Positions 4,662 through 47,666 of a stretch of 48,660 nt of DNA are shown here, one piece after another. Source of the DNA: Sedimenticola hydrogenitrophicus (GTDB lineage: Bacteria > Pseudomonadota > Gammaproteobacteria > Chromatiales > Chromatiaceae); the NCBI RefSeq assembly GCF_025175675.1, contig NZ_JANIOA010000032.1:1-48660 (forward strand). The letters run 5' to 3'. How positions within the stretch are numbered: the stretch's first letter is position 1; each line of letters opens with the position of its first letter. The notes below the pieces were generated by a model that saw only the letters and a program-made list of their open reading frames with translations, was not told the DNA's origin and made no database searches. The translations under genes were made by a program, and so were the position numbers.

Positions 4662-4696
4662 ATAAAAATTCCCTGAATTCCCGGACACGTGAAAAT

Positions 4697-4762
4697 GGGT
4701 CGGAGTCGATCTGTGCACCGGAGTACGGGGCATGGCGTCGTACCCGGATCGACTCAGACCCC
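4697..4762. repeat. GGGGTCGGAGTC-family hairpin, copy A
   Basis: The left arm GGGTCGGAGTCGATC (4697-4711) pairs with GATCGACTCAGACCC (from 4747) with one mismatch; a GTACG/CGTAC pair lies within the loop. This is one of five clear copies in the window of a palindromic element with the same outer arm and different inner stems (see 31608, 34064, 35388, 45922). It sits upstream of the MarR-GNAT gene and downstream of the small membrane protein gene on the minus strand. Confidence 0.7.
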
Positions 4763-5191: not shown

Positions 5192-5429
5192 GGCCTGAAA
5201 CCCTGTTTCGTTATTCTGCTTGTCTAGAGTGTAGCTATCGACATGATACGGGCAACGGCTTCGGCCGTCCCCTATCCCGCGCCTGTTCAACCAGGGGGCC
5301 AACCGGGTGTCGGAGTCAGGTCGCCCATCCGACTCGGTATAAAGCCCCGACCTTGCACGAGCCCTTAGGCTTACTATTTATGTGGGAGCTGCTATATTGC
5401 CTTGCACAGTGACTCAGGAGGGAAGCCGT

Positions 5430-31607: not shown

Positions 31608-31676
31608 GGGGTCGGAGTCAAGCCGCGCAATCATTGGAGAAATGGCGCCAGTTATTGGCGGCTTGACTCCGACCCC
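31608..31676. repeat. GGGGTCGGAGTC-family hairpin, copy C
   Basis: The arms GGGGTCGGAGTCAAGCCGC (31608-31626) and its exact complement (31658-31676) give a 19-base perfect stem with a 31-base loop. The inner stem AAGCCGC differs from the AGGCCGC of copy E with the opposite arm changed to match. Confidence 0.85.
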
Positions 31677-31690
31677 GATCCATAAAAACT

Positions 31691-31830
31691 TCATTTCAAC
31701 CGCTAAGGACGCAAAGAGCGCGAAGGAAAACAACGGCTTGTATTCTCCAGAACCTCGACCTGCGGGTTGGACCGAAAATGAAGATAAGCCATTGTATCTC
31801 TTTGCGTACTTGGCGTTCTTCGCGGTTGGA
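31691..31830. repeat. MITE-like element, AACCGCTAAGGACGC family, copy 1
   Basis: About 140 bases starting TTCAACCGCTAAGGACGCAA and ending TTGGCGTTCTTCGCGGTTG form imperfect terminal inverted repeats. Related full-length copies are at 41210-41350 (reverse) and 47680-47812. A GTTGGGGTTCG unit follows at 31839-31870. No open frame is convincing. Confidence 0.75.
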
Positions 31831-31838
31831 TCGAGTCC

Positions 31839-34040: not shown

Positions 34041-34063
34041 TCAAGGCGACTAACCATGACGGG

Positions 34064-34093
34064 GTCGGAGTCGGTAATTCGGCTCCGACCCGA
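34064..34093. repeat. GGGGTCGGAGTC-family hairpin, short copy D
   Basis: GGGTCGGAGTC (34064-34074) faces GGCTCCGACCC (34083-34093) with one mismatch and an eight-base loop, 23 bases after the leuD stop. It is the shortest copy of the family and has no T-run. Confidence 0.7.
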
Positions 34094-35387: not shown

Positions 35388-35456
35388 GGGGTCGGAGTCA
35401 GGCCGCCCCTGCCGGTTGGTCTTGCCTGCCGGATCGCGCGGCCTGACTCCGACCCC
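35388..35456. repeat. GGGGTCGGAGTC-family hairpin, copy E
   Basis: Arms GGGGTCGGAGTCAGGCCGC (35388-35406) and its exact complement (35438-35456) give a 19-base perfect stem, one base longer if the flanking A-T pair is counted. It lies between leuB and asd. It could slow or end transcription, but no T-run follows. Confidence 0.85.
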
Positions 35457-36704: not shown

Positions 36705-36748
36705 GTTGTGGCGGGTCTAGTACTGCTTCAATTTGATAAGGTACATTT

Positions 36749-36780
36749 GTAGGGTGGATAAGCCAGTAGGCGCATCCACC
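36749..36780. repeat. GGTGGAT palindromic repeat
   Basis: This 32-base unit beginning GTAGGGTGGATAAGCC and ending GCGCATCCACC contains a GGTGGAT/ATCCACC dyad. The same unit is inverted at 47826-47857 with one base changed, and a diverged copy is at 46029-46060. Confidence 0.75.
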
Positions 36781-36987
36781 AATGTTCACGGGATGATTGG
36801 CCTGCCTTGCCGGCCTCACACGATGGCTTGCCTCCTCGAATCCGGCCCCTTTTTCACTGCCAGCCCCAACTCGCTTCGCTCAAACAAGGGCAGGTTTGAA
36901 TTTGGAAAAGGGGCCGAATTCGAGGCGCCACCAAGATCGGCCAACAAGGCAGGCCAATCACTTGCAGGCCGGGTGAATAGTTACCTA
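36781..36987. repeat. Interspersed inverted-repeat element (short copy)
   Basis: This is the reverse-orientation relative of 16801-17100 without its roughly 100-base insert. The ends GATTGGCCTGCCTTG and CAAGGCAGGCCAATC face each other, with CTCGAATCCGGCCCC and GGGGCCGAATTCGAG inside, so the whole 207 bases could fold on itself. With the terminator and the GGTGGAT unit it fills the asd-asd2 gap. Confidence 0.75.
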
Positions 36988-37071
36988 ACATGTTGAATTT
37001 TAATTTATATATTTGATACAGTTTGGCCCGGTTCCCGGTTCCCGGTTAACTTTATTTGTGGGTGAGTGTTG

Positions 37072-41184: not shown

Positions 41185-41209
41185 GGCTTCCGGATCAACC
41201 TGAATTCCT

Positions 41210-41350
41210 GGATTCAACCGCGAAGAACGTAAAGTGCGCATAGAGATACAATGGCTTGTCTTCATGTTCGGTCCAGCCCGGTAGATGGAGGGTCGAGAGA
41301 ATTCAAGTCGTTGTTTTACTTTGTGTTCTTAGCGGATAGGATGAAGTTTT
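41210..41350. repeat. MITE-like element, AACCGCTAAGGACGC family, copy 2 (reverse)
   Basis: Starting GATTCAACCGCGAAGAACG and ending TTGTGTTCTTAGCGGATAGG, it aligns over its full length with the reverse complement of 31691-31830, including the inner GATACAATGGCTT and TTCGGTCCA. It lies between the fimV terminator and truA. Confidence 0.7.
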
Positions 41351-41390
41351 TAGGATCAATCCTTCCATGACCATCAGGAGCAGAGGCTGA

Positions 41391-45921: not shown

Positions 45922-45996
45922 GGGGTCGGAGTCAAATTTGATCAAGGAAATGTGGCAGATCATACTACAATGTCCATCAAATTTGACTCCGACCCC
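45922..45996. repeat. GGGGTCGGAGTC-family hairpin, copy F (longest stem)
   Basis: Twenty-one bases from 45922 (GGGGTCGGAGTC, then AAATTTGAT) are exactly complementary to 45976-45996, with a 33-base loop. The outer arm equals copies C and E, while the inner nine bases are entirely different yet fully paired. It lies 57 bases after accD. Confidence 0.88.
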
Positions 45997-46060: not shown

Positions 46061-46145
46061 ATACTCCGATCCCAATCGGTCTAGAGACAGACACCCCTAT
46101 GCGTTTCCTGATTACCCATCAAACTCAGCTGTGTTGAGGAAAATA

Positions 46146-46391
46146 TTAGCCGCAAATGAACACGAATAATGTCATTTCGTAAACATCTTATCCGCTGGTT
46201 TGGGGAGTACCGATCATTTTCGGGCATGAGTCGGTCCCGATTAAATCCTAAGCGGTTGGTTATCTTTATCACTATTTGCGTGTATTCTCGTTCATTCCAT
46301 CCTTAGGTCCGTAAACGGTGCATCCTTGCACCACTCCTCGCGGCTTAAATAAACGGTATTCGACCATGGCTGAGTATTGTGGGTAATCAGG
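46146..46391. repeat. Composite inverted-repeat element before folC
   Basis: It begins TTAGCCGCAAATGAACACGAA and ends with ATTCCATCCTTAGGTCCGTA, the GGTGCA-TCCT-TGCACC hairpin (about 46318-46333) and ATGGCTGAG...GTGGGTAATCAGG directly against the folC ATG. The two ends and tail match 29423-29758 before narL; the middles differ. The ACCAGG/ATCAGG end is 7 bases from the narL ATG but touches the folC ATG. Confidence 0.7.
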
Positions 46392-47666
46392 ATGCGTTTT
46401 GACAACCTCGATGACTGGCTGAACTGGCAGAGCACGCTGTACCCGAGAGAGATCGAGCTTGGTCTGGCGCGGGTCAACGCGGTCTGGCGGCGACTCCACC
46501 CGGCGCCGCTCGGCTGCAAGGTGATCACGGTGGCCGGGACCAACGGCAAGGGCTCCTGTGTCGCCTTTCTGGAGACGATGCTGCGCGCCGCCGGCTATCG
46601 CGTCGGGTGCTACACCTCGCCCCATCTGGTGCGTTATAACGAGCGCATCGTGATCGATGGCGAGCCGCAAGCCGACCGGGTTATCTGTGAGGCGTTTGAG
46701 CGCGTCGACCGGGCGCGTGGCGACACCCTGCTGACCTATTTTGAATTCGGCACCCTGGCGGCGCTGGATCTGTTTGCCGCCGCCGCACTGGATGTGGTGG
46801 TGCTTGAGGTGGGCCTGGGGGGACGGCTGGACGCGGTCAATATCATCGATCCCGATGTCGCCCTGATCACCACCGTGGATATCGATCACACCGACTGGCT
46901 GGGCCAGACCCGGGAGCAGATCGGGCGGGAGAAGGCCGGTATCATGCGCCCGGGCCGGCCGGTGGTCTATGCCGGCAGCGACATGCCGGCCTCGATCGGG
47001 GCGGCGGCGGAGCGGCTGGGCGCCCGGCTGCTGCGGGCCGGCGAGGATTACCAGTGGCGCCGCCAGGAGCAGGGGTGGGAGTGGCTGCAGGCGGAACACC
47101 CGCGACATTCGCTGCCGCTGCCCAATATGCGCGGCGCCTTCCAGTTGCAGAACGCCGCGGCCGCGCTGATGGCGCTGGAACTGTTGCGCGACGAACTGCC
47201 GCTGGATCAGCGCGCGGTACGCTTCGGACTGCAGGAGGCGCAACTGCCGGGACGTTTCCAGGTGCTCGGCCGCGATCCCCAGGTGATCCTGGACGTGGCC
47301 CATAATGCCCAGGCGGCGCGGGCGCTGTCGGATAATCTCGGCGACATGTTCTGTCACGGCCGGACCCTCGCCGTATTCTCCATGCTGGCGGACAAGGCGA
47401 TCGATCAGGTGGTGAAGATCATGGCCCCGCGGATCGATGCGTGGTATCTGTTTCAGATCGACGCCGGCCGCGCAGCACCCATCGCGCAGCTGGAACAGGT
47501 ACTCGGGGAGCAGGGGATCGAGGCGTCCCGGCGGCACCGCTTCGACGATGTCGCCGCCGCCTTTGCGGCCGCCCGCGCCGCTGCCGGGGAGGGGGATCGG
47601 ATCGTGGTATTCGGCTCATTCTATGCGGTCTGCGACGTGGCGAAGCTGGCTGAGCACTGGGGGTGA
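46392..47666 (+). CDS. folC: Dihydrofolate synthase/folylpolyglutamate synthase
   Basis: This 424-aa Mur-ligase-family protein has the P-loop VAGTNGKGSC (49-56), TSPHLVRYNERI, the EVGLGGRLDAVN motif and DVAHNAQAARAL. It adds glutamate to dihydropteroate and to folates. The ATG at 46392 gives the usual MRFDNLDDWLNWQ start; an in-frame GTG lies 15 bases earlier. The AGG just before the ATG is too close to act as a normal ribosome site, and the sequence up to the start is repeat-derived. Confidence 0.95.
   Translation: MRFDNLDDWLNWQSTLYPREIELGLARVNAVWRRLHPAPLGCKVITVAGTNGKGSCVAFLETMLRAAGYRVGCYTSPHLVRYNERIVIDGEPQADRVICEAFERVDRARGDTLLTYFEFGTLAALDLFAAAALDVVVLEVGLGGRLDAVNIIDPDVALITTVDIDHTDWLGQTREQIGREKAGIMRPGRPVVYAGSDMPASIGAAAERLGARLLRAGEDYQWRRQEQGWEWLQAEHPRHSLPLPNMRGAFQLQNAAAALMALELLRDELPLDQRAVRFGLQEAQLPGRFQVLGRDPQVILDVAHNAQAARALSDNLGDMFCHGRTLAVFSMLADKAIDQVVKIMAPRIDAWYLFQIDAGRAAPIAQLEQVLGEQGIEASRRHRFDDVAAAFAAARAAAGEGDRIVVFGSFYAVCDVAKLAEHWG

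Follow-up and report, generated by a model that had tools for sequence, protein, structure and literature searches.

The window analyzed here is a 48,660-nucleotide stretch that makes up contig 59 of the draft genome of Sedimenticola hydrogenitrophicus (4.71 Mb in 132 contigs; referred to here as G000). It contains a set of hairpin elements with a common outer arm, GGGGTCGGAGTC (Table 1). A search for 12-mer matches to this arm, allowing at most one mismatch, returned 11 hits in the window versus 0.48 expected. The initial annotation described five clear elements that share the arm. All five are real, although the one placed at 34064-34093 sits at 34061-34091, and only three are perfect hairpins of 69 to 75 nucleotides; the others are a short form and a decayed doublet. 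For the three perfect copies, the reported stem length of 19 to 21 bases agrees with our measurements (19, 19, and 21 bp).

Table 1. Hairpin elements and isolated arm located in the 48,660-nucleotide window
Feature	Position	Strand	Description
Decayed doublet	4696-4762		TGGGTCGGAGTCGATC...GATCGACTCAGACCCC; inner stem GATC
Single sister-type arm GGTGTCGGAGTC	5306-5317	+	From arm match search of the window
Hairpin doublet, 69 nt	31608-31676		Perfect 19-bp stem; inner stem AAGCCGC
Short form	34061-34091		Arms of 12 to 13 nt with one arm mismatch; loop of ∼6 nt
Hairpin doublet, 69 nt	35388-35456		Perfect 19-bp stem; inner stem AGGCCGC
Hairpin doublet, 75 nt	45922-45996		Outer arm GGGGTCGGAGTC; inner stem AAATTTGAT; perfect 21-bp stem; 33-nt loop

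The hairpin at 35388 lies between listed open reading frames (ORFs). Those at 31608 and 45922 each overlap an ORF of the mechanical list, yet the former is upstream of a conserved start and the latter follows an ORF of 300 amino acids. The loop of hairpin 31608-31676 also occurs in a copy on contig 78 (L162_1551), and hairpin 45922-45996 shares its loop cluster with a copy on contig 80 (L163_5568).

The window holds other repeats as well. A 150-bp repeat forms an inverted pair (31677-31835 and 41208-41357; 78% alike) and directly adjoins hairpin 31608. A repeat of ∼200 bp at 36748-36999 has tens of copies in G000 and in the genus relative G006, 86 to 93% alike among the matches listed. A 288-bp repeat at 46105-46392 has an identical copy on contig 86 and further copies, with 80% similarity, on contigs 43 and 55, the contig 43 copy lying ∼150 bp from another doublet.

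Copy number, arm types, and distribution

The pattern GGGGTCGGAGTC-N20..50-GACTCCGACCCC retrieved 70 doublets from G000, while the reversed-pattern control retrieved none; the 75-nucleotide copy of the window is outside the length range of this count. Sixty-eight of the 70 GGGG copies were fetched, and the cluster analysis described below used 69 GGGG copies, including the 75-nucleotide one. The exact pattern occurs 22 times in G006 and is present in 6 of the 38 genomes searched (G000 included), all six from one genus. Public species genomes yielded at least 103 doublet stretches, mostly from Gammaproteobacteria, with others from entries annotated as Betaproteobacteria, Acidobacteria, or Actinomycetota.

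A sister family, GGTGTCGGAGTC...GACTCCGACACC, carries a paired arm change (GGTG/CACC) and numbers 33 doublets in G000 and 7 in G006; by arm-pattern search, it is absent from the other seven genomes of the genus. An unbiased search of these nine genomes for mixed GGGG/GGTG arms gave none. When one substitution per arm was allowed in the fetched stretches, 108 doublets were found, in which 33 departures were two-sided, every one of them at pair 3, and 8 were unpaired; since these stretches had been picked for matched-arm doublets, mixed-arm counts inside them are biased. The outer arm, too, thus exists as two matched types. Two such types without intermediates are a behavior that we have not seen described. 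Doublets may also be arrayed ∼100 to 150 bp apart with interiors of two types (L057, 5342-5902; L113, 3677-4346).

Presence and absence were compared at syntenic loci. At the place corresponding to hairpin 45922, G006 has no doublet and a single degenerate arm, GACTCCGACCCA. The 35388 doublet is likewise absent from its syntenic locus in G006, where neighboring intergenic bases are missing too, and at the place syntenic to 31608 the five other genus genomes aligned have other sequence. None of seven loci compared with relatives (31608, 35388, and 45922 in the window; 4277 and 11628 in L135; 11321 and 1532 in L156) showed a clean empty site, the spacer differing more widely in each case; a joined-flank search likewise gave 43 spanning matches and no clean empty site. 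The plainest case is L156_1532, which lies between two conserved genes in G000 and G006 and is missing from the shorter version of the same spacer in G002. L135 2411-2573 and L156 5572-5737 belong to one repeat family of ∼165 bp, which is present dozens of times in G006.

RAYT genes and their terminal repeats

Five matches to PF01797 (Y1 transposase) were found in G000, on contigs 54, 75, 83, 99, and 100. None is on contig 59, which bears out the remark in the initial annotation that the window has no RAYT gene. A link to RAYTs had nevertheless been proposed there, along with a search for a RAYT or Y1 transposase flanked by the same arms. Run here, this search recovered RAYTs with the same or sister arms as TIRs or directly adjacent, both in G000 and in other genomes (the exact arm in Zobellella taiwanensis, sister arms elsewhere), but no RAYT with exact GGGGTCGGAGTC ends was found in assembled G000. 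For the sister GGTG type, a same-genome RAYT flanked by the same sequence does occur. The two longest RAYT frames in G000, L016 and L017, are located at the ends of contigs, carrying GGGGTCAGACTC or lying next to GGTGTCGGAGTC; RAYT17, at L017, is near GGTG doublets, and its adjacent arm matches them 31/32 (score of 30; highest of 300 shuffles, 19). The RAYT17 reading frame also contains, in its 3′ part, a single GGGGTCGGAGTC arm (L017 1343-1354).

In the Sedimenticola MAG CSMAG_2797 (L278), a RAYT gene stands between GGGGTCAGACTCGATTGAT repeats. A nearby doublet matches the left end of this element at 48 of 51 bases (score of 45; highest of 300 shuffles, 20) and then continues into the right arm. 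By its looks, the doublet may be an internally shortened RAYT element. In all, 21 RAYT loci were examined, of which 16 had a reading frame by our filter; 11 of these 16 had an inverted repeat of ≥11 bp around the frame, a tally that has no chance control. Inverted repeats with the arm or a sister arm were found at five RAYTs, all of them PF01797 proteins: GGGGTCGGAGTCA, the exact arm bounding the Z. taiwanensis gene (L279), GGGGTCAGACTCGATTGAT at L278, GGGGTCAGACTCGAT at L244, GGGGTCGGTGTCATTTA at L283, and GGGGTCAGAGTCAAATTAA at L284. Beside the RAYT of L283, a row of single arms, GGGGTCGGTGTC, the same as the ends of that RAYT, extends over 715-1157.

The association between RAYTs and arms is not general among doublet-bearing genomes. 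Although PF01797 matches were obtained in 18 of 20 other such genomes, the doublet-rich J047 and 134-614, both MAGs, gave none. Among 30 loci listed from doublet-bearing genomes, 8 had an arm-like sequence and 2 an exact arm, one of the latter being L270. The Y1 gene of L270 lies between exact arms (PF01797, 141.7 bits) and was rejected as a cognate, as it looks like part of an IS200-type element inside a doublet. This element, which we take to be of IS200 type by likeness, occupies 1337-2056 of L270, directly after GGGGTCGGAGTCAA.

Two groups in the literature resemble the RAYTs found here: the TIRtrons or TIRYT elements of Di Nocera 2013 (PMC3733652) and TnpAY1 subclass 2.1 (PMC6006769). The former are RAYT genes with long TIRs starting with GGGG, whose TIR copies also occur as dimers and clusters (PMC3733652). 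In keeping with a Y1/HUH gene, PF01797 was detected in all seven RAYT proteins scanned, while for NF047646, L017 scored above and L279 below the cutoff. TIRs are shared with dispersed doublets as well, with the same arms at L278 and L279 and sister-arm TIRs at L244, L283, and L284. The elements depart from the TIRYT description in the TIR consensus, which is GGGGWSAS in PMC3733652 and GGGGTCGG here, and in the ∼100 doublets in one genome. Of the TIR starts, GGGGTCGG differs from the published motif at position 7, and GGGGTCAG, from the relatives, fits it. No second Pfam domain, and hence no C-terminal helix-turn-helix, was detected at an E value of ≤0.1 in seven proteins, a scan that a weak domain could escape. 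In PMC6006769, TnpAY1 subclass 2.1 genes are reported to lack REP-like sequences nearby. The RAYTs found here fit both TIRYT and TnpAY1 subclass 2.1.

Orientation of flanks and interiors

The flanks outside the arms are asymmetric, with a consensus of GAA before the GGGG of the left arm and TGTGG after the CCCC of the right arm; on the two sides, the first four positions are ∼42 to 76% conserved. For both arm types, a two-sided flank model scored above all 15 shuffles, which were run with fewer restarts than the real data. In G006 and 134-614, flank asymmetry was not above 20 shuffles, again run with fewer restarts. In the three larger groups of G000, 41 copies could be oriented with confidence, and loop and flanks agree in orientation in 30 of them (24.8 expected at random; P = 0.0145), these copies being related to one another. 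The coupling is pronounced in J047 (12/13) and Dive96 (9/10 grouped copies) and weaker in A3 (10/15), 134-614 (7/10), G006 (11/16), and 131-447 (13/20, with tandem arrays). This coupling suggests strand-specific insertion, the outcome expected of a strand-specific transposase. Among the exceptions are L314 and L307, which have identical loops in opposite directions between the same 8-nucleotide flanks. Two copies on one contig, L314_1502 and L315_1479, have a diverged left flank in common but differ in the right flank, as though a duplication had ended at the hairpin.

We compared 17 orthologous loci between G000 and G006. This set includes two manually added pairs and an L150 partner shortened by six bases. 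Three copies were excluded: L014_1501, which shares its G006 partner with L014_1763; L139_777, which is a different element; and L308_1796, which is neighboring and nonhomologous. At 2 of the 17 loci, the interior is reversed between the same flanks, and one of these cases is fairly clear. Between L008 (G000) and L182 (G006), flank conservation reaches to within 2 bases of the arms, and the interior of one copy is the reverse complement of the other; the differences immediately next to the arms amount to three bases, two on the left and one on the right. The second case, L014_1763 and L186, is a probable reversal. Reversed interiors are also seen in a minority of paralogues. Among the literature matches listed, we found no description of interior reversal in REPs, and interiors that turn round are a behavior we have not seen described for REP-like hairpins.

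Such reversed interiors could instead reflect fresh insertion of, or conversion by, a copy in the opposite orientation rather than inversion in place. We regard this as possible but doubtful. A symmetric-ended insertion could go either way, random orientation having been rejected in G000 only at the P value given above; at L014_1763/L186, another copy, L166_1774, scores 50 versus 47 for the orthologue; and at L008/L182, a G006 paralogue reaches 51. At that locus, however, the orthologue is the best match to L182 among all 267 copies collected, with a score of 57, and both flanks extend to within 2 bases of the arm. Loop and flank orientation are, moreover, coupled in J047 and Dive96. For template switching between inverted repeats, flipping of the spacer and homogenization of the arms have been reported (PMC8604942, PMC8794818). 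Arm homogenization and loop inversion would be common to that process and to the hairpins studied here; in the excerpted sources, such maintenance is described for rRNA, microRNA, and yeast genes and not for a mobile hairpin family (PMC8794818, PMC8604942).

An extension of this idea, which we entertain only tentatively, is that the hairpins are invertible units. Their interiors would flip often enough that 11 of the 41 orientable G000 copies, about a quarter, lie reversed relative to their flanks. Replication copying of one arm onto the other would both flip the loop and rebuild the inner stem, so that a structure free of any fixed sequence would be maintained jointly by a mutational process and by selection for transposition.

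Pairing of the inner stem and the proposed mechanism

A perfect stem of 18 to 19 bp is present in 51 of the 69 GGGG copies, regardless of sequence. Pairs 13 to 18 are Watson-Crick in 91 to 100% of these copies and pair 19 in 70%, while from pair 20 onward, pairing is mostly near or below the level between arms of different copies. An apparent enforced mismatch at pair 20 (0.14 versus 0.27 in the 69 copies) was discarded, as it was not significant in loop clusters (7 versus 10.8 expected in 42 clusters). These clusters were obtained by grouping 102 doublets of both arm types by loop similarity in either orientation and retaining one copy per cluster; they are not a phylogeny, and residual relatedness is possible. 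At pairs 15 to 19, 177 of 210 pairs in the 42 clusters are Watson-Crick, compared with a mean of 107 (standard deviation, 6.3) when arms were re-dealt by permutation. Since the maximum of 5,000 permutations was 136, the paired change is not due to chance.

The covariation of inner stems proposed in the initial annotation therefore extends genome-wide, and the possibility raised there that most inner stems would be unpaired was not borne out. Its view of the changing inner stem as the unusual part is weakened by the excerpted text of PMC3116915, which in 2011 already described compensatory changes affecting the two sides of REPIN hairpins; covariation is therefore not new.

The tempo of change was followed across increasing divergence. 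Pairs 1 to 19 at the 17 orthologous loci contain 8 one-sided changes and no two-sided ones, and the same 8 and 0 were counted in 25 paralogue pairs with a loop identity of ≥0.9. At 0.8 to 0.9 (38 pairs), there were 31 one-sided and 11 two-sided changes, at least 10 of the 11 being the same C-G/T-A change at pair 16. The 140 pairs at 0.7 to 0.8 gave 63 one-sided, 99 two-sided Watson-Crick, and 8 two-sided unpaired changes, and the 416 pairs below 0.7 gave 224, 907, and 49, respectively. Paralogue pairs share copies and are thus nonindependent, and perfect outer arms had been a selection criterion for most copies. The counts depict one-sided change first and compensation later. The initial annotation had suggested that structure is kept by selection or that the inner stem is rebuilt. 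This was right in outline; replacement in one step was not seen, as close copies and orthologues differ on one side only. Nor was fast repair of resident copies observed; selection for folding during amplification and slow repair would both fit.

Mutation bias alone is an unlikely source of these patterns. Under this reading, quasi-palindrome repair, through template switching between imperfect arms, would maintain arm similarity and invert the loop without any selection for folding. Loop reversal at orthologous loci does correspond to the reported footprint of template switching (PMC8794818, PMC8604942). The orthologues and the closest paralogues, however, show one-sided changes only, so arm repair is not fast; repair acting alone should lengthen the stem, yet pairing drops after pair 19; and both the copy number and the homology to RAYT elements are left unexplained.

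A function as RNA elements (terminators or message stabilizers), with covariation arising from selection on RNA, is less probable still, for despite stable folds, the frequent transcription presumed for REPs (PMC3733652), and T-runs after 15 of 123 copies outside G000 and G006 (e.g., CAJQOV, 4/4; MGR_bin175, 3/5), as well as beside the Zobellella RAYT, T-runs follow only 1 of 110 copies in G000 and 0 of 34 in G006, G-T and A-C mismatches in oriented stems are equally frequent (16 and 17), Rfam gave no match in the window, and presence is patchy (6 of 38 genomes, including G000 itself). The equal mismatch counts also give no sign of which strand folds. T-runs follow the hairpin at L279 563-597, as well as at L051, L033, and L063, and hairpins of Zobellella and some other genomes may thus also serve as terminators.

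We consider it likely that the hairpins are nonautonomous mobile elements resembling REPINs, descended from RAYT-type HUH/Y1 transposases with TIRs (TIRYT, TnpAY1 subclass 2.1) and mobilized by them. They would combine a fixed foot, a paired but drifting inner stem, a free loop, and an occasional reversal of the interior in place. The 12-nucleotide foot would be fixed because the transposase recognizes it. In the next 6 to 9 pairs, the sequence would drift because pairing alone is required for the single strand to fold; one-sided changes would arise first and be compensated in the course of many amplification rounds. The loop would be free of constraint, and the interior would occasionally turn round in place, most likely through replication template switching between the arms.

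In kind, such a family is ordinary. REPINs were described by Bertels and Rainey in 2011 as REP doublets that form hairpins (PMC3116915), and the doublets studied here share with them two inverted, conserved short ends ∼70 nucleotides apart, a variable spacer with compensatory changes, many copies, and a link to RAYTs (PMC3116915). They differ in their ends, GGGGTCGGAGTC, in most stems stopping at 18 to 19 bp, and in the absence of a GTAG-type tag: no GT[AG]G is present at the 5′ foot, where arms start with GGGG or GGTG and the 5′ flank consensus is GAA or CA. In-place reversal of the interior, proposed here, is not mentioned for REPINs in the excerpted text of PMC3116915. Occurrences of the arm motif itself in literature excerpts were judged unrelated.

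What is new is the group. REPIN-like hairpins would be extended to TIR-flanked RAYTs, for which one survey reported no REP-like sequences, and one doublet corresponds to a left RAYT element end attached to a right arm. The contrast between one-sided changes in orthologues and two-sided changes in distant copies may offer a general way to separate selection during amplification from replication repair in hairpin stems, and in-place reversal is a directly testable prediction.
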